Assembly: GCF_034479635.1 (NCBI RefSeq)
Contig: NZ_CP140153.1
Span: 565,501-629,500 of the forward strand
Reading direction: 5' to 3'
Source: Guyparkeria halophila
Lineage (GTDB): Bacteria > Pseudomonadota > Gammaproteobacteria > Halothiobacillales > Halothiobacillaceae
DNA length: 64,000 nt
Shown: positions 37,134 to 45,252 of the stretch, one piece after another
Position numbering within the stretch: position 1 is the stretch's first letter
Layout of the letters: every line of letters starts with the position of its first letter
Notes under the pieces: model-generated
Told to the model about the DNA's origin: nothing
The model's input: only the letters and a program-made list of their open reading frames with translations
Databases searched by the model: none
Translations under genes and position numbers: made by a program

Positions 37134-37222
37134 ACCCTTCCACAACTTCCAGGCACTCGTCGCAAGACATTGATCCCTCAGGGAACCCTCGCTGTGCCAG
37201 GATCAAGGCCGGGATGTTATGC
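37127..37222 (+). other. candidate integron attC site before the first cassette
   Basis: GCATAAC (37127-37133) and GTTATGC (37216-37222) are exact complements in the spacing (96 bases) of an attC R''/R' pair. The next inner bases (CACCCTTCC and GGCCGGGATG) pair only partly. A second GTTATGC lies at 37246-37252, right before the cassette gene. This is plausible but weaker than the site at 38107. Confidence 0.4.
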
Positions 37223-37272
37223 GGCGTTTCGGCCGTCCAATTATAGTTATGCATCAAACAAGGAGTATTAAT

Positions 37273-38112
37273 TTGACCGATAAAACAGGAAAAAAAGAAG
37301 GTTCACCCCTCTGGGAATGGGTTAAAGCAATTTCAATGCTCGTAATTGTTGGCGTGTTTTCATACAAGGTATATTTGACTCCAATTAATCTAACGGTAGA
37401 TTTTCCAACCCTCCTTTCACTTCTTCTAGCCCTATTTTCAGTAGGCTTGGCGGCTCTTTTCTATTTTAAAGCTACGGAAACAAGCAACACTTTCTACGAC
37501 AATACATACAACTTTACGAAGGACATTGCTCAGCTTTTGGTAAAGATAGAAAGTGGTTTTGGTGAAAAGCTTAGGAATCTAGATGAAGGTTATGCGGCAA
37601 TGCGGAGTCAGCTTCAAAGAGATCCTACTTACAATTCTGAGGCCAAGGAAACAAAGCAGAAAATTGAAGGCGAGAAACAAGAAATCGAAAAAGTTCTTGA
37701 AGAGAGAAACGCAATTCTTAGTAACCTTTTAGAAAGATCCCAGCTTGAGCAAGACGAAAAAGAGAAGGTTCTTGCTGAGTTAGCCGAAAAAGAAAAAGAG
37801 CTAGAAGAATCTCAGAAAGAATTAAATAGAATGAATAAGCGGCTATTTATGGAGCGAATGAAGAAGAGGGAGCTGGCAGATGAATTTGATTCAGCGTTAG
37901 AGAGATATACATATCAACGTATTATTGAAGGAATCGGACTTGAACGAGTTCTTCATCTCAGCTCACTTGGTGTTAAGAAGAAAGTCGATCAGTTGTTAAA
38001 TGAGATGCCACATCAATACATTGAAGATTTAGAAAAAAATGGATACTTCGATAATGGAATTACAAGAAAAGGCGTTGAATTTATAAGGGAGTTGGCGCGT
38101 AAAAATGCATAA
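37273..38112 (+). CDS. cassette-encoded membrane protein with long coiled coil
   Basis: A 279-residue protein I do not recognise. Two hydrophobic helices (about residues 13-35 and 44-68) are followed by a soluble region. A strongly charged coiled coil spans about residues 115-215, rich in E and K. The C-terminal domain is mixed (about 220-279, with ERYTYQRIIEGIGLERVLHL). The start is TTG at 37273, with AGGAG 7 bases upstream; an ATG at 37249 is in frame but lacks a ribosome-binding site. The gene is strikingly AT-rich against its GC-rich surroundings and its TAA lies inside the attC R'' core, as in integron cassettes. It was acquired by transfer. Membrane-anchored coiled-coil proteins occur among phage-defence effectors, but nothing here proves that. 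Confidence 0.85.
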   Translation: MTDKTGKKEGSPLWEWVKAISMLVIVGVFSYKVYLTPINLTVDFPTLLSLLLALFSVGLAALFYFKATETSNTFYDNTYNFTKDIAQLLVKIESGFGEKLRNLDEGYAAMRSQLQRDPTYNSEAKETKQKIEGEKQEIEKVLEERNAILSNLLERSQLEQDEKEKVLAELAEKEKELEESQKELNRMNKRLFMERMKKRELADEFDSALERYTYQRIIEGIGLERVLHLSSLGVKKKVDQLLNEMPHQYIEDLEKNGYFDNGITRKGVEFIRELARKNA

Positions 38113-38184
38113 CAAAGCCATAAAATACGCTCCCTTTGGTCGCCGGACGCTCACAAGTTCGCGCCGTTTATGGCGGCGTTAGCC
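38107..38184 (+). other. integron attC recombination site
   Basis: R'' core GCATAAC (38107-38113) and R' core GTTAGCC (38178-38184) stand 78 bases apart. The inner arms GCCATAAA and TTTATGGC are exact complements, giving the R''-L''-loop-L'-R' fold of an attC. It starts at the stop codon of one gene and ends 17 bases before the next start, the standard position in a cassette array. Confidence 0.85.
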
Positions 38185-38201
38185 ATCATGGAGACGTTTT
38201 C

Positions 38202-39692
38202 ATGAATCCTCAGCTTCTGTTTAACGAGTACTTCGAAATCGACCAGAAGGTGGTGGATCGGTATGGGGCGCTCAACATATGCGTGGAAGCAGACCTTCCA
38301 CTTTTTGTTGATCCGTTTCTGTTGTTCTCATCTGAGAATCCCGAGTATCAGGCACTGCACGACAAAATAGTCGGACATCTGATTTTTCTCCGCGAACTTG
38401 CCTCGAATAACCCTTCAATTGGGCCTTCACTTTTTAAGTTCCCAGAAGTCCCACAGAACTGGCTTGGAATGTGTAAGTGGGGCAACAACGGTAAGGGTCT
38501 AGGCCCCAAGTTCGCTCGCAACCTAGTAGGCGCATTTAATGGCTTCTATCGCAATTTTGGGGCCGAGACAGTCACCAACGCTTCTCACATAGAAAAGTTG
38601 ACACTAGTTGGGTCAGGAATTGGTCGCGATTTCATAAGCGATTTCACAACTAATCTCATGCTGGAATTTCTGCTGAGCTACTCTCAAAAATTTGCACAAC
38701 AGCATCTTTCTCAACAACAACGCAAAACTTTCACGGTGCGCTGTAGCTTCGATCAAGACCTCATGGTTTGGACTCCAAAGTCGTTCGAGCTTCCATACTT
38801 CTACAAGGGAGATCGGGACGAGGATTTCATACTGCTAACACCCGTGGATATACTGACAAAAGATGAGGCCTTCATCTGTCACAGCGATTTTACGAGTCAG
38901 TTCAGGAAAGTTGCAAACTCCCTGGGCAACGCGGCGCTCCGAGATGCTATCAACCTCTACTTCCAAAAACGCCTTCCGACCAACCCTAAAAAGGAAGATA
39001 TTGAACGGGCAATTGATGCAACGGTTCACAAATACCCTGAAATCCTCGACTACTACATTGCGAAAAAAGAATCGGAAAAGGACAAGGCATCTGTACTTTC
39101 TGCTGAGAAAGTTGAGAAATTACGAGTTGAGCTACTCGCCACGCTCACAGACTTCTGTAAGCACTTGTTTTCGAACAGCGATTTCTACAATATCGAGCCC
39201 AATAGCTATGGTGAAGCTCTGAAGCGGGCGCACTTCCTTAAGCAGGTGATTGAGGACAACGACGGCTACAAAATTTTCTACAAGGGTGGCAAGCCAATCT
39301 CATCAGAGGAAACGGTTCAACGAATTTTTCGTCTGACCTGGTTTGCTTCGCCATACGACGTAAACGCCGAAGTTAACAATGGTAGAGGCCCCGCTGACTA
39401 CAAGGTCTCGTTTGGGGGTCGGGATTCAACGATAGTCGAATTTAAGCTTGGTGGCTCTAGTTCCCTTAAGAAGAACTTGCAAAATCAGACGGAAATTTAC
39501 AAGAAAGCATCGAAGTCGATTTCTGATATCAAGGTTGTTCTTTGTTACACGAAAGTTGAAATCGCCAAGGTCTACCGGGTGCTCAAGGCTATTCAGCAGG
39601 AAAACGCCGAGAACGTGATTGTCATTGATGCAACGCCAAAACTCTCGGCTTCAAAGGTGGGCCAACGGGGTCGGACCAAGCCAACCTTATGA
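38202..39692 (+). CDS. cassette-encoded protein with PD-(D/E)XK nuclease motif
   Basis: A 496-residue soluble protein of unknown family. Near the C-terminus it has GPADYKV (Asp about 399), a short beta turn, then TIVEFKLG (Glu about 413, Lys about 415). It continues with SLKKNLQNQTEIYKKA, where a Gln follows in the usual helix. This is the layout of PD-(D/E)XK restriction-like nucleases. The first 380 residues show no motif I recognise and could be a target- or DNA-binding part. ATG at 38202 has GGAG 8 bases upstream; the frame's upstream part runs through attC. Its base composition is intermediate, less GC-rich than the host. As an integron cassette with a nuclease motif it is a candidate defence gene, by inference only. 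An IS3 element starts 24 bases after the stop. Confidence 0.83.
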   Translation: MNPQLLFNEYFEIDQKVVDRYGALNICVEADLPLFVDPFLLFSSENPEYQALHDKIVGHLIFLRELASNNPSIGPSLFKFPEVPQNWLGMCKWGNNGKGLGPKFARNLVGAFNGFYRNFGAETVTNASHIEKLTLVGSGIGRDFISDFTTNLMLEFLLSYSQKFAQQHLSQQQRKTFTVRCSFDQDLMVWTPKSFELPYFYKGDRDEDFILLTPVDILTKDEAFICHSDFTSQFRKVANSLGNAALRDAINLYFQKRLPTNPKKEDIERAIDATVHKYPEILDYYIAKKESEKDKASVLSAEKVEKLRVELLATLTDFCKHLFSNSDFYNIEPNSYGEALKRAHFLKQVIEDNDGYKIFYKGGKPISSEETVQRIFRLTWFASPYDVNAEVNNGRGPADYKVSFGGRDSTIVEFKLGGSSSLKKNLQNQTEIYKKASKSISDIKVVLCYTKVEIAKVYRVLKAIQQENAENVIVIDATPKLSASKVGQRGRTKPTL

Positions 39693-39787
39693 TATTGCAA
39701 GTATAAGCGTCGTTGTGAAGTGGTTCACTGATCTTGGACACCCGGATAGGTGGTAATTTTGCCACCGTGACCACGAGGTGTATCAGG

Positions 39788-40093
39788 ATGGGACGACGAC
39801 ATTTTTCAGCCGCGTTCAAGCTCGAGGCGACCAGCCTGGTGCTGGATCAGGGCTACACGGTGCCCGAGGCATGCGCTTCGCTGAACATCGGCGATACTGC
39901 ACTACGTCGGTGGGTTAAGCAGGCCCGTGCCGAGCGGGAGGGTACCGTCCCGGCGGGCCATGCCCCGTTGACCGAGGAGCACCGCCGCATCGCCGAGCTG
40001 GAAGCCAAGGTCAAACGCCTGGAGCAGGAGAAAGCCATCCTAAAAAAGGCGACGGCTCTCTTCGTCGAGGACGAGACGCGACATTCGCGGTGA
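39788..40093 (+). CDS. IS3-family transposase OrfA
   Basis: A 101-residue DNA-binding subunit with an N-terminal helix-turn-helix (FSAAFKLEATSLVLDQGYTV, then LRRWVKQ) and a C-terminal leucine-zipper-like coiled coil (IAELEAKVKRLEQEKAILKKA). The slippery sequence A-AAA-AAG at 40042-40048 lies in its 3' part. A -1 shift there enters the orfB frame, which is open, giving the OrfAB fusion transposase. The ATG at 39788 has AGG close upstream; its stop overlaps the orfB start. Confidence 0.93.
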   Translation: MGRRHFSAAFKLEATSLVLDQGYTVPEACASLNIGDTALRRWVKQARAEREGTVPAGHAPLTEEHRRIAELEAKVKRLEQEKAILKKATALFVEDETRHSR

Positions 40094-40950
40094 TCGACCG
40101 ACTGGGAGAGCCTGCCAACGTAGCCTTTGTCTGTCGGACGCTGGGTGTTCCCCGATCCAGTTACTACCACTACCGCGAGCGGAAGGGCCGTGAAGTGGAC
40201 GTCGACCGGCTTGAGCTTCGAGCCCAGGCAAGGCGGTACTTTCACGAAAGCCGGGGGTCAGCCGGCAGCCGCACGCTGCGGGGTCGTTTCGCGGCCGACG
40301 GCATAGCGATCGGCCGATTCAAGGTCCGCCGGCTCATGCGGGAGGCCAACCTCGTCAGCCGACAGCCACGCCGGGCCCCGTACAAGCACGCCCGGCAAGA
40401 AAAACCCGACGTGCCGAACCGGCTGGGCCGAGCGTTCGCCGTCGAACAGCCCAACCAGGTCTGGTGTGGTGACATCACCTACCTCTGGGTCGAGGGCCGA
40501 TGGTGTTACCTAGCGGTGGTCATGGACCTGTTTGCCCGTCGGGTCGTCGGCTGGGCCGTCTCGGACTCGCCGGATGCCCGGTTGGCCGAGAGCGCCTTGT
40601 CGCATGCCTGGCAGCAACGGGGGCGACCCCGCCACATCCTGTTCCACTCCGACCAGGGTGTGCAGTACGCCGCGGCTTCTTATGCCGCGGCCCTGTCCCG
40701 TTTTGGCATGGAACCGAGCATGAGCCGGCGGGGCAACTGCTGGGACAACGCGCCGATGGAGCGACTTTTCCGCAGCTTCAAGAGCGAGTGGATGCCCCAC
40801 CGAGGCTATGGCTCGATCGCCGAGGCGAGACGAGATGCCGGCGCCTACTTGATGGGCTACTACGATTCGGTCCGCCCGCATCAATACCTGGACGGTCAAA
40901 CGCCGGCGGAAACCGAGAAATCACTCAACGAACTGTCCAAGATCGCTTGA
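40090..40950 (+). CDS. IS3-family transposase OrfB (DDE integrase core)
   Basis: A 286-residue rve-type catalytic subunit. The DDE residues are the Asp in WCGDITYL (near 120), the Asp in FHSDQGVQY (near 180) and the Glu in NAPMERLFRSFKSEW (near 220). The N-terminal HTH_21-like part precedes the core. The frame begins with GTG at 40090, overlapping the orfA stop, but the active product is probably the frameshift fusion. Its stop lies within the right inverted repeat. Confidence 0.94.
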   Translation: MIDRLGEPANVAFVCRTLGVPRSSYYHYRERKGREVDVDRLELRAQARRYFHESRGSAGSRTLRGRFAADGIAIGRFKVRRLMREANLVSRQPRRAPYKHARQEKPDVPNRLGRAFAVEQPNQVWCGDITYLWVEGRWCYLAVVMDLFARRVVGWAVSDSPDARLAESALSHAWQQRGRPRHILFHSDQGVQYAAASYAAALSRFGMEPSMSRRGNCWDNAPMERLFRSFKSEWMPHRGYGSIAEARRDAGAYLMGYYDSVRPHQYLDGQTPAETEKSLNELSKIA

Positions 40951-41056: not shown

Positions 41057-41950
41057 TTTCACGCGCAGTTGCACAAGCGGGCACTGATTGGCGGCAGTGC
41101 TTGGCGCGCGAGTCGGTTTTCTTGCTTGTCCAAGAAAATCGACGAAAAGAAGGACACCCCGACGCCTTGGCCCTGCGGGCCTGATCGCTGGTGCGATCAG
41201 CCTCGCGAACGGGGAATCGCGGACGGGTCGGTTCGCCGCGACGTCCTGTCGCGGCGAACCTCGGGCTTGCGTCCATGCAAGCCCGACCCTGCGATTTCCC
41301 GTCCGCGAGGCAAGGCGTAAGGGGGGACTCCCCCTTCGATCCACATATTTCATGGACTTCAGCGGCGTACATGCCTTGGGGTCCGGTGGAATGAACCCTC
41401 GCAGCTGGCATGGCGGTTAACGAGGGCCTTTGCCCCCTAGGGCTTGCCTCACGGCCGGCGGGTGGCCGGGGTCGGAGCGACACGACGTCGCGTCGAGCCG
41501 GCCCTAGGGAATCTCTGCGTGAATGGATAGTGCCTCTGCGGGACCGCCAAGGGTCCAGATGCAAGGCGCGGTGCGCAGTGAATGGCCGTCGCATTCGCAA
41601 GCGCCGCAACGCCGCAGATGGGCAGTTGGCGGCCCGCCCGTGCGGGGCTCGCGGGTTTGCCCGCACTCGTCGTTTCCGGCCCTCGACGGGCAATGAGCCC
41701 GCCTTCGGCCCGGTGCCTCGATTGCGAACAAACCCGCAAGCCAGAGGCGCCATCGATTCGTGCAGAGATTCCCTGGCCAGCCGTCGGTCGTGAGGCTTCG
41801 AGGTCGGACGCCGTCCGGCCTCGAAGGCCCGAAGGGCCAAGCCGTGGGGTGTCCTTCTTTTCGCCTCTTTTCTTGGACAAGCAAGAAAAGGGGCTCGCAC
41901 GCCGGGCACGGCGGTAGTTGTTGTCCACCCTGCGCAACAGGCGTGCGAAA
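41057..41950. repeat. hairpin-rich inverted-repeat element, copy A
   Basis: An 894-base non-coding element related to 44530-45252. Terminal core arms (41103-41160 and 41846-41903) are long inverted repeats containing TTTTCTTG-CTTGTC-CAAGAAAA. Shorter outer repeats (TTTC.ACGC left, GGCGTGCGAAA right) extend them. Inside are several hairpins shared with copy B, such as CTGATCGC/GCGATCAG (41181-41200) and GGCTTGC/GCAAGCC near 41264-41283. Open frames in it show no gene-like start or composition and differ between copies. It carries a nested module (41507-41773) missing from copy B. Confidence 0.85.
41507..41773. repeat. 267-base inverted-repeat module nested in copy A
   Basis: Its ends GGGAATCTCTGC (41507-41518) and GCAGAGATTCCC (41762-41773) are perfect 12-base inverted repeats. 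The next 20 bases on each side also match imperfectly (both ending GCCTCTG). Copy B lacks it at the same place, so it looks like a separate insertion. No open frame or transposase is inside. Confidence 0.7.
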
Positions 41951-42045
41951 CAAATCTCACCCGGTGATGGATGCCCACTCGAGTGGCGACTACGCTTGTA
42001 AGCGATAGCCGCAGACGTCTTTAACGAATCACCGTCGGAGGCTCC

Positions 42046-43140
42046 ATGACCAATCGCGAAGATATAAAAGACCGTGCCGCCGGCGCGATCATGGGGGCCT
42101 TCGTCGGCGATGCCCTGGGGTTGGGTCCGCACTGGTACTACAACCTCGACGAGTTGCGTCGGGACTACGGCGAATGGATCGACGGTTATACCGCCCCCAA
42201 GCCCGGTCGCTACCACGAGGGCCTCAAGGCAGGCCAGCTCTCCCAGGCGGGGGTTATCCTCGACTTGATGCTGCGTTCGCTGGTCGCGGCGAATGGTTAC
42301 GACGAAGCCGATTTCTGTCGGCGGCTGGATGATGACCTCTTCCCAATGCTCGATGGCACCCCGGCCGCCGGTCCCGGCGGTTACACCAGCCAGTCCATCC
42401 GTGATGCCTGGCGAAAACGGGTCGAGTACGGCTTGCCCTGGGGTGAAGTCGGCGGCCACGCCGACACCACCGAAGCCATTGAACGCACGCTTGCCATTGC
42501 CGTGCGCTATGCATTCCAGCCCAAGAAACTGGCTGCAGCCATTGCCGGCAACACCACGCTCACTCAGGTGGACGAAACGGTGGTCTCCATGACCGTGGCG
42601 CACGGTGCGCTGCTGGCCCAGCTGGTTCAGGGGCAACGCCTGGATGCGGAAATCTCCGCTCGGCTGATGGCCTTGGTGAAACGTGGCGATTTGCCGTTTC
42701 ATGCCGTCACCAGCGATGACTTGCAGCCTCCCCAGCCGGGGCAGCCGGACCCGCCCCGGGCCGGTCGTTTTGCCTCGCCCGATGCCTTGCTGACCCCGTC
42801 ATTCATCGCCGCGGCGGCTGCCGATCCCGGGGTGCGCATCGAGCCGCCCTGGAAAGTCTCCCTGGTGTACGGCATGCCCTGCGCCATTTATCACCAGCTG
42901 CCGGCGGCCTACTACCTCTCGGCAAAATTTGCCGACGATTTCGAGGCGGCGGTATTGCACGCGGTCAATGGCGGTGGCCAGAACATGGCCCGGGCGATGC
43001 TGACCGGGGCGCTGACGGGGGCGCAGGTGGGTCTCAGCGGAATCCCGCAGCGGTTTATCGACGGGTTGGAAAACGTCGGCGAGTTGCAGCGGCGGGCCGA
43101 GCGAGTGGCCTCCGCGGTGGCAGCCGACGGTCTTCCATGA
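42046..43140 (+). CDS. ADP-ribosylglycohydrolase-fold protein lacking canonical metal ligands
   Basis: A 364-residue all-helical protein of the ADP-ribosylglycohydrolase superfamily. The N-terminus AAGAIMGAFVGDALGLGPHWYY (residues 11-32) is the family opening, and LTGALTGAQVG near residue 330 is the closing glycine-rich helix. Active members bind two Mg2+ ions with a TDDT motif and a GGDTD motif. Here the corresponding places read AGQLSQAG (near 66) and GGGQNMARA (near 318), so the usual metal ligands are missing. It is probably a binding protein or an enzyme with other chemistry. GGAGG is well placed before the ATG. It lies between the two repeat elements together with mscS. Confidence 0.82.
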   Translation: MTNREDIKDRAAGAIMGAFVGDALGLGPHWYYNLDELRRDYGEWIDGYTAPKPGRYHEGLKAGQLSQAGVILDLMLRSLVAANGYDEADFCRRLDDDLFPMLDGTPAAGPGGYTSQSIRDAWRKRVEYGLPWGEVGGHADTTEAIERTLAIAVRYAFQPKKLAAAIAGNTTLTQVDETVVSMTVAHGALLAQLVQGQRLDAEISARLMALVKRGDLPFHAVTSDDLQPPQPGQPDPPRAGRFASPDALLTPSFIAAAAADPGVRIEPPWKVSLVYGMPCAIYHQLPAAYYLSAKFADDFEAAVLHAVNGGGQNMARAMLTGALTGAQVGLSGIPQRFIDGLENVGELQRRAERVASAVAADGLP

Positions 43141-43313
43141 TGGTCCAGGTATCCGAGCGGCGGAGGCCGAACGGGCGGCGACGCCCCCAGGTCAGCCCGA
43201 ACCGGCGCTCATCGTCGTCACATGGCCGCCGCAGCGCCCGTCGAACGAGCGCCGTGGCGGGCGTTCGTCCGTTGTTCGCTTCCCGTCGCGGAACGGTTGC
43301 ACGAGCCATTAAA

Positions 43314-43344
43314 CGCCCCGGCAGATGTTGCCGGGGCGCTTTTT
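43314..43344 (+). terminator. terminator in the ADP-ribosylglycohydrolase-mscS gap
   Basis: A perfect 10-bp stem CGCCCCGGCA / TGCCGGGGCG and a 5-base loop are followed by CTTTTTC. It lies 174 bases after the upstream stop. I see no gene in the rest of the 43141-43536 gap, which should hold the mscS promoter. Confidence 0.85.
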
Positions 43345-43536
43345 CGTCTGTCGTGTCAGGGTAAGAAGACCCTTTTCTATCGCTTTGTGACCCGCAATTG
43401 CTCGCTGGGCGAGTTGTCGTGCGGTCTAAGCTTGAAGGGCCTCGTGTGGTTTCGGGATCGCCGCGCCCACAGGGGATGAGCACCACGGCGTGCGCAAGCC
43501 GCGCTGATTTACGCGCTGATTGATGGGGAGCGAGTC

Positions 43537-44424
43537 ATGCAGGAAGGTTTCGGAGCAGGGGTGTTGGCCCTCTGGCAGGCCCCTCTGTACCAGGCGGGCG
43601 AAACGACCATCCACCTGAGCCAGTTGGTGATAGCGCTTCTCGTCATCGTGCTGGGCTTTTTGCTGGTGCGTTACGTGGGGCGCACGCTATCGCGTCGCAT
43701 CGACAAGGATTCGCGCGTATCGGCCCAGCGGGCGCACGTGATCCGCAAGATGGTCGCCTACGTGGGCTATCTGACCATCGTCCTCATGGCCCTCCCGATC
43801 GCCGGCATTCCGATCACGGTGTTTGCCATTCTGGGTGGTGCGCTCGCCATCGGTGTGGGTTTTGGTGCCCAGAATCTGCTCAACAACCTGATCTCGGGCA
43901 TCATTCTGCTGGTCGAACACCCCATCAAGATTGGCGATGTCGTCGAGCTGGAGACCGACAGGGGGCGCGTCGAGGATATCGGGAATCGTTGCGTGCGCAT
44001 CCGGCGTTTCGACGGGGTGCATGTGCTGGTGCCGAACAGTTACTTTCTCGAGCAACGTGTCACCAACTGGACACTGGTGTCCAACGAGGTGCGTGGTGGG
44101 GTAACGGTAGGCGTGGCCTACGGCTCACCCACCCGCCGGGTGGAACAGCTGATGTTGCAGGCCGCGATGGAGCAAAGGGCCATTGACGACAGCCTGGCGA
44201 ATCCCGAGGTGCTGTTCGAGGACTTCGGCGACAACAGCCTGGTTTTTACCGTGTTCTTCTGGACGCGGGTTCAGGTGGCCACGGACCTTCGTCGACTCCA
44301 ATCGACCATCCGATTCCGTATTGATGAGCTGTTTGCCGAAGACGGGATCGTGATTGCCTTCCCGCAACGTGATGTGCACCTGGATACCAGCGATCCCCTG
44401 CCACTTCGCATGGTCGATGAGTGA
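43537..44424 (+). CDS. small-conductance mechanosensitive channel, MscS family
   Basis: A 295-residue inner-membrane channel that releases solutes on hypo-osmotic shock. Transmembrane helices lie near residues 28-50, 70-92 and 93-120. The pore-lining TM3 has the Gly/Ala pattern ILGGALAIGVGFGAQNLLNNLISG. The beta domain (GDVVELETDRGRVEDIGNRCVRIRRFDG, then VPNSYFLEQRVTNW) and the C-terminal alpha/beta domain follow. The length matches E. coli MscS (286). ATG at 43537 follows GGGGAG. It is a single gene behind its own gap. Confidence 0.93.
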   Translation: MQEGFGAGVLALWQAPLYQAGETTIHLSQLVIALLVIVLGFLLVRYVGRTLSRRIDKDSRVSAQRAHVIRKMVAYVGYLTIVLMALPIAGIPITVFAILGGALAIGVGFGAQNLLNNLISGIILLVEHPIKIGDVVELETDRGRVEDIGNRCVRIRRFDGVHVLVPNSYFLEQRVTNWTLVSNEVRGGVTVGVAYGSPTRRVEQLMLQAAMEQRAIDDSLANPEVLFEDFGDNSLVFTVFFWTRVQVATDLRRLQSTIRFRIDELFAEDGIVIAFPQRDVHLDTSDPLPLRMVDE

Positions 44425-44495
44425 ACGGGGCGAAGGGAGACAAAAACCCGTCCGCTGTGGCCGTGTTCGTGGCTCGGCCCGAGCACGGGACTGAC

Positions 44496-44514
44496 AAAGG
44501 GGTCAGAACCCTTT
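44496..44514. repeat. small inverted repeat before element copy B
   Basis: AAAGGG and CCCTTT flank GTCAGAA. It lies between the mscS stop and the left end of repeat copy B. It could end the mscS transcript weakly. Confidence 0.35.
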
Positions 44515-44529
44515 AAGACGCTTCTATGA

Positions 44530-45252
44530 TTTCGCACGCCCTCAACGCAAGTGCTGAGTGCCAAACCGCATTGGTAGGCGCGCGAGTCGGTTTTCTTGCT
44601 TGTCCAAGAAAACCGACGAAAAGAAGGACACCCCGACGCCTTGTGCGGGCCTGATCGCTGCGCGATCAGCCTCGCAAACGGGGCATCGCGGACCGGTCGG
44701 TTCGACGCGACCTCCTGTCGCGGCGAACCTCGGGCTTGCCGGTCCAGCTACGCCAAGGCTCCGCCTTCATCGGGCATGCGGCGTGCCACTGGCACGCCGG
44801 TCCCGATTCACCCATGCCGGCCCGACCCTGCGATTCCCCGCTCGCGAGGCAAGGCGTAAGGGGGCGCCCCCTTCGATCCACGTAATTCACGGACTTCAGC
44901 GGTGTACATGCCTTCGGTTTCCGGTGGCATGAACGCTCGGCAGCCGGCACGACGGTAAGCGAAGGTTTTCGCCCCATGACGGCTTGCCTCACGGCCGGCG
45001 GGTGGCCGGGGTCGGAGCGACATGGACGTCGCTCCGAGGCTCAGCGCGACACGATGTCGCGTCGAGCCGGCCCCGAGACATTCGCCGGCCGTGAGGCTTC
45101 GAGGTCGGACAAACGTCCGGCCTCGAAGGCCCGAAGGGCCAAGCCGTGGGGTGTCCTTCTTTTCGCCTCTTTTCTTGGACAAGCAAGAAAAGGGGCTCGC
45201 GCGCCGGACACGGCGGTGGTTATCTGCTTCTTCGCGTAACAGGCGTGCGAAA
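44530..45252. repeat. hairpin-rich inverted-repeat element, copy B
   Basis: A 723-base relative of copy A. Outer 11-base perfect inverted repeats TTTCGCACGCC (44530-44540) and GGCGTGCGAAA (45242-45252) frame it. The core arms 44577-44634 and 45148-45205 match at 52 of 58 positions. In each arm the TTTTCTTG/CAAGAAAA hairpin is extended by four bases that pair within the arm (TCGG with CCGA on the left; CCTC with GGGG, including a wobble, on the right). A short insert near 44738-44818 is absent from copy A. No gene is visible. Confidence 0.85.

Follow-up and report, generated by a model that had tools for sequence, protein, structure and literature searches.

TwoAYGGAY (Rfam RF01731, clan CL00106) is known as an isolated RNA in which two tandem hairpins with GGA loops sit inside one outer stem, and it was earlier predicted on motif grounds to bind CsrA (PMC4333381). 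The CsrA consensus obtained by SELEX is RUACARGGAUGU, displayed mostly in six-nucleotide loops closed by AC/GU on ligands that mostly have four stem pairs or fewer, and the repeats of CsrB read CAGGA(U/A/C)G (PMC7652899). Hairpin loops with GGA, in CAGGANG and ANGGAN motifs, are shared by the CsrB, CsrC and RsmX-Y-Z RNAs, each the product of a dedicated sRNA gene that has a promoter and many sites. Among DNA elements, MITEs such as QMITE1 of Coxiella burnetii are short, gene-free and interspersed, have inverted ends, and can yield sRNAs (PMC5896051). REP/REPIN sequences are palindromic intergenic repeats accompanied by RAYT genes, and mobile insertion cassettes consist of a gene between transposon ends without a transposase.

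The window analysed here, a 64,000-nucleotide stretch of the Guyparkeria halophila genome, holds two copies of a repeat, family A, that resembles each of these systems in part. Like MITEs, family A is interspersed and gene-free with terminal inverted repeats (15 places, ends TTTCGCACGCC/GGCGTGCGAAA), but it is larger, palindromic over its whole length, and has neither a detectable target-site duplication nor a known parent transposase. It carries a hairpin module that matches TwoAYGGAY, although here the module is internal to a long dispersed palindrome and occurs twice in a full element, once per half, each facing outward. In contrast to the CsrB-type sRNA genes, it has no visible promoter and only two sites in each half. 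Y1 (RAYT-like) genes are present in the genome, as for REP/REPIN, but family A is much longer, with no GTAG-type ends seen and no Y1 gene association. As with mobile insertion cassettes, arm pairs in other genomes flank passenger genes; however, family A-type ends are long hairpin modules rather than known IS ends, and passenger movement is only putative. Literature searches found no description of the family A element, although one elsewhere is possible, and for the arm sequence returned a single unrelated human paper.

Structure and boundaries of the family A elements

An alignment of 18 copies from the G. halophila genome and its congeners placed the boundaries of the two window elements to the base, exactly where the sequence-only reading had drawn them (Table 1). 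Similarity between family A copies ends abruptly, with TTTC[GA]C[AG]CGC as the left limit and GGCGTGCGAAA as the right. Both window elements are bounded by TTTC[GA]C… and …GCGTGCGAAA, and some subfamilies carry a degenerate outer extension, GGTGGATCG. Copies 1 and 2 are long imperfect palindromes with inverted arms of 67 nt (85% complementary) and 70 nt (84%), respectively, and family A elements are generally ∼620 to 720 bp in size. Each half consists of the terminal TTTCGCACGCC, an AT-rich arm hairpin, and then a G+C-rich three-way-junction module. The arms, order and internal hairpins described at first sight as common to the two copies are so, in a blockwise manner, with most blocks sharing 87 to 95% identity. 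No transposase or other gene was found inside family A copies, and the long open reading frames within them overlap in several frames on both strands of G+C-rich sequence; the elements are thus read as gene-free, which bears out the initial assessment.

Table 1. Coordinates of family A and family B features in the window
Feature	Position	Strand	Remarks
Family A element copy 1	41057-41950	+	With nested family B repeat
Copy 1 left inverted arm	41094-41160	+	
Copy 1 left arm hairpin core	41117-41138	+	TTTTCTTGCTTGTCCAAGAAAA
Copy 1 left outward module	41225-41289	-	Hairpin 1 loop AUGGAC, hairpin 2 loop AGGAC; RF01731 match 41198-41313, 61.1 bits
Copy 1 right module	41469-41504	+	Hairpin 1 deleted, second hairpin alone remains
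Nested family B repeat	41507-41773	+	267 bp, inverted ends, TA precedes
Copy 1 right inverted arm	41846-41912	-	
Copy 1 right arm hairpin core	41868-41889	-	
Family A element copy 2	44530-45252	+	
Copy 2 left inverted arm	44565-44634	+	
Copy 2 left arm hairpin core	44591-44612	+	
Copy 2 left module	44693-44828	-	Hairpin 1 loop swapped for recurrent variant
Recurrent loop variant in hairpin 1, copy 2 left module	44740-44812	-	Also L045, L075
Copy 2 right outward module	45009-45073	+	RF01731 match 44977-45102, 50.1 bits
Copy 2 right inverted arm	45148-45217	-	
Copy 2 right arm hairpin core	45170-45191	-	

Each copy had been thought to carry an insert of its own, and this holds for copy 1, where the insert is a separate, MITE-like interspersed repeat, family B, unrelated to family A and nested in it. 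Family B is ∼268 bp long and occurs at about 26 places in the genome, most of them outside family A. In most copies its inverted ends, GGGAAWCTCTGCACGAWTCGATAG, adjoin TA on at least one side. Two copies (L050 and L055) read cta-GGGAA...TTCCC-tag, combining inverted ends with TA at both borders as in a TA-target MITE, and most others have TA on one side only. Family B was also found in the same spot of an A copy in three congeners, G001, G003 and, inverted, G005. The supposed insert of copy 2 is not private but a recurrent variant of the hairpin 1 loop, present in the same hairpin in a third G. halophila copy (L045, at 1553 kb) and in congener G002 (L075), each with its own stem intact.

Dispersal, age and reshuffling

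The two copies lie only 2.6 kb apart, and a 37-bp left flank is common to copy 2 and the G001 orthologue of copy 1, as might be expected if the locus had undergone tandem segmental duplication. Family A, however, occupies 15 places in the 2.45-Mb G. halophila genome and is found in 9 of 10 congeners (the exception is a 64%-complete genome), with weak matches in two further genera of the bacterial family. The wider search suggested by the sequence-only reading thus identified an old, scattered, interspersed repeat family and not a local duplication; the interspersed copies rule out an origin by tandem duplication, which the sequence-only reading had named as grounds for its own refutation, and we give that explanation a negligible probability.

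Comparisons that included the flanks showed that several family A places are orthologous across the genus. Other places vary between species. One copy specific to G. halophila lies between efflux adaptor and pump genes, where the spacing is short in eight congeners; its left half is truncated, so the insertion junction is unreadable. The site orthologous to that of copy 2 is empty in G001 and G002 and occupied in G003. At locus 39 the orientation of the element differs between species, and the flanks of the empty site in G005 are too diverged for a duplication to be read. The right side of copy 1 is orthologous to the G001 copy and its left end is that of a different subfamily, which indicates that A copies have exchanged parts. 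At a further locus (L136, G008:C34), an A copy is cut to its two outer ends, the full element being present there in congeners.

Directly left of copy 1 is an IS3-family transposase pair (orfA/orfB; window positions 39734 to 40950), and in G001 part of the same IS3 element lies inverted beside the orthologous A copy. Beside the IS3 element, two neighbouring genes at 37219 to 39692 encode a 297-amino-acid coiled-coil membrane protein and a 518-amino-acid protein with no Pfam match, the C-terminal part of which (GPADYKVSFGG...IVEFKL) looks by eye like a PD-(D/E)XK nuclease. This gene pair is possibly a two-gene defence system.

Evidence bearing on mobility

Target duplications and a full-length relative with a transposase had both been proposed as signs to look for, and neither was found. 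In 27 complete A copies no adjacent duplicate recurred consistently, whatever the extension, and the longest word shared by the two flanks averaged 3.74 nt, compared with 3.90 nt in mismatched flanks. No autonomous relative sharing the A ends was identified among the congener copies and superfamily loci read, only ordinary genes lay between neighbouring A copies in G. halophila and G002, and a plasmid collection searched with copy 2 gave no match. As the copies contain no transposase and show no target duplication, mobilisation of family A is unproved, and we infer it from interspersion and presence/absence alone.

The main rival to an RNA-level role is that the element acts as DNA, with its hairpins serving as single-stranded substrates of a mobilising enzyme, either a recombinase or a RAYT-like HUH/Y1 transposase, for which the GGA loops form part of the recognition. 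The palindromic anatomy with subterminal hairpins would suit such an enzyme, the lack of target duplication is expected of HUH enzymes, four Y1_Tnp (Y1-type transposase) genes were found in the G. halophila genome, and REP-like GTCGGACTGAAGTCCGAC repeats lie beside some copies, with similar ones near one Y1 gene. However, no A end motif was present within about 1.5 kb of any of the four Y1_Tnp genes, so that no RAYT gene flanked by family A copies was seen, the halves are inverted and not in an IS200-like arrangement, and the loop variation ANGGAN follows the CsrA consensus. We consider this DNA-level explanation unlikely, though deserving of more weight than the other alternatives.

A REP-like palindrome, GTCGGACTGAAGTCCGACCTACAGG, adjoins several A copies (right flanks of L036, L060 and L069), and related GTCGGGCTNNAGCCCGAC repeats were observed beside one Y1 transposase gene (L078).

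TwoAYGGAY modules with CsrA-like loops

Both window copies exceed the RF01731 gathering threshold of 43 bits (Table 1). All 15 matches above this threshold in the G. halophila genome fall at family A places, and none was found in 14 control genomes. A named family covers part of the unit, not the whole. A ∼29-nt deletion removed hairpin 1 from the right module of copy 1.

The 65-nt module is predicted to fold into a multibranch structure of an outer stem and two hairpins (structure z of −7.2 and −5.3), with module stems of 8 to 13 bp. Among 24 distinct modules, both-sided changes were identified at 12 of 26 pairs, amounting to 65 cells against 18.4 ± 3.7 in shuffled sequences and no more than 9 when the pairing was slid; such covariation fits an RNA hairpin or a single-stranded-DNA hairpin alike. 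The hairpin 1 loop follows ANGGAN, with GGA in 66/66 modules and variable flanking N positions (base 2 is often G); hairpin 1 was located without requiring GGA but requiring A as first loop base, and the 66 modules include many orthologues and are not independent events. The hairpin 2 loop is a five-nucleotide AGGAN in roughly half of the modules and has CGA in place of GGA in the others. Right modules read GAC-ANGGAN-GUC, and hairpin 2 reads GAC-AGGAN-GUC where GGA is kept. Compared with the published consensus (PMC7652899), these loops show the features of a CsrA/Rsm site, namely, GGA in the loop and an ACA/GU context. A csrA gene is present in the G. halophila genome. Counting against CsrA binding are the module stems, which are longer than those of most SELEX ligands, and the CGA found in so many hairpin 2 loops.

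Neutral, decaying repeats could give loop conservation that is only apparent, arising from relatedness and gene conversion, and the many partial copies, mosaic ends and numerous orthologous modules agree with this. The stems, however, have both-sided changes at 7 of 8 pairs with GGA never altered, and loops with this strand specificity are found again in other families of the class; neutrality is accordingly judged improbable. The Rfam match, and GGA hairpins for which CsrA binding has been proposed, would also suit dispersed, independent CsrB-like sRNA genes without mobility, but palindromic ends, interspersion, lineage-specific presence/absence and the failure to find a promoter-like site in the stretch make this very improbable. 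The sequence-only reading had offered a non-autonomous transposable element or a structured RNA. The findings support both in combination, a dispersed transposase-less palindrome with above-threshold TwoAYGGAY modules, with transposition and transcription unproved.

Spread beyond the genus and passenger genes

RF01731 matched 23 of 369 Gammaproteobacteria, often in multiple copies, and many of these places also had the arm hairpin. As an independent test, loci were picked by the arm hairpin TTTYYTTGCTTGYCCAARRAAA alone, which was found in 20 of the 369 genomes. An outward-strand GGA hairpin was present inside the arm at 16 of 27 non-congeneric cores, compared with 2/27 on the opposite strand, 1 outside the arm and 0.9% in shuffled sequence. 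In a second genome set, outward GGA hairpins were found at 27 of 32 Gammaproteobacteria cores (two of them from congener G002) against 5/32 for the opposite strand, and at 10 of 42 cores from other bacteria, nearly all Selenomonadales. Diverged relatives in Methylomonas, Dyella and two further genomes (G150 and G210) missed the RF01731 threshold though the hairpins were present, and three arm-core matches in viral contigs were without GGA hairpins.

The arm hairpin together with ACGAACCAAAAGAAAAGACAC also occurs in Bacteroidota (L197, L200, L208 and other loci); GGA hairpins are absent there, and these matches are not claimed as family members. A Selenomonadaceae contig has a RAGATH-18 RNA (RF03064; L211, positions 2046 to 2107) close to an arm. 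Many contigs of two draft genomes, G314 and G210, break off at the arm hairpin, a pattern suggesting copies that are almost identical and were active recently.

Inverted arm pairs in other genomes flank an AbiU2-type HEPN gene (L118), an OLD/GajA-like ATPase gene (L260), an SNc-like nuclease gene (L106) and, by eye, an NYN-domain-like ORF (L255) and a methyltransferase-like ORF (L190). The passenger insertion comparison for the AbiU2 example ran into a contig end. Elsewhere the paired arms enclose ordinary genes (by eye, nif-type genes in L233), and a pair of arms is thus not necessarily a single unit.

Proposed model and implications

Judged from its sequence, family A is a real, class-wide palindromic repeat with MITE-like anatomy and CsrA-like RNA modules. 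Our overall reading, which we put at about even probability, is of a gene-free palindromic repeat spread in trans, its outward modules exposing CsrA-type GGA loops. Family A would be a non-autonomous element that spread in the ancestor of the genus, probably dispersed by an enzyme supplied in trans, and may now be mostly fixed, decaying and reshuffled by inter-copy recombination. A transcript crossing or leaving the element would carry the distal module in sense and present its ANGGAN and AGGAN hairpin loops, which would most likely bind CsrA as an Rsm-type site or decoy. Modules may have been kept because their transcripts bind CsrA. A bolder version, that transposase-less mobile palindromes with outward CsrA-binding modules exist across the class and that transcripts of the element or its passenger genes serve as decoys for CsrA or subject the passenger to its control, is a tentative proposal that we think has a modest chance of being correct.

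The orphan Rfam family TwoAYGGAY gains a genomic context from this work, as every above-threshold match in the G. halophila genome falls within a dispersed palindrome, and RF01731 matches lie in such elements in several other Gammaproteobacteria too. Caution is warranted with automatic RF01731 annotation, which may mark repeats. Should CsrA binding by the modules hold true, genomes would be receiving dispersed CsrA sites from mobile-type DNA, and arm pairs that enclose defence-like passengers would offer a testable vehicle for gene movement. The same layout in many Gammaproteobacteria points to mobile-type DNA as a possible means by which decoys of a host regulator are spread.
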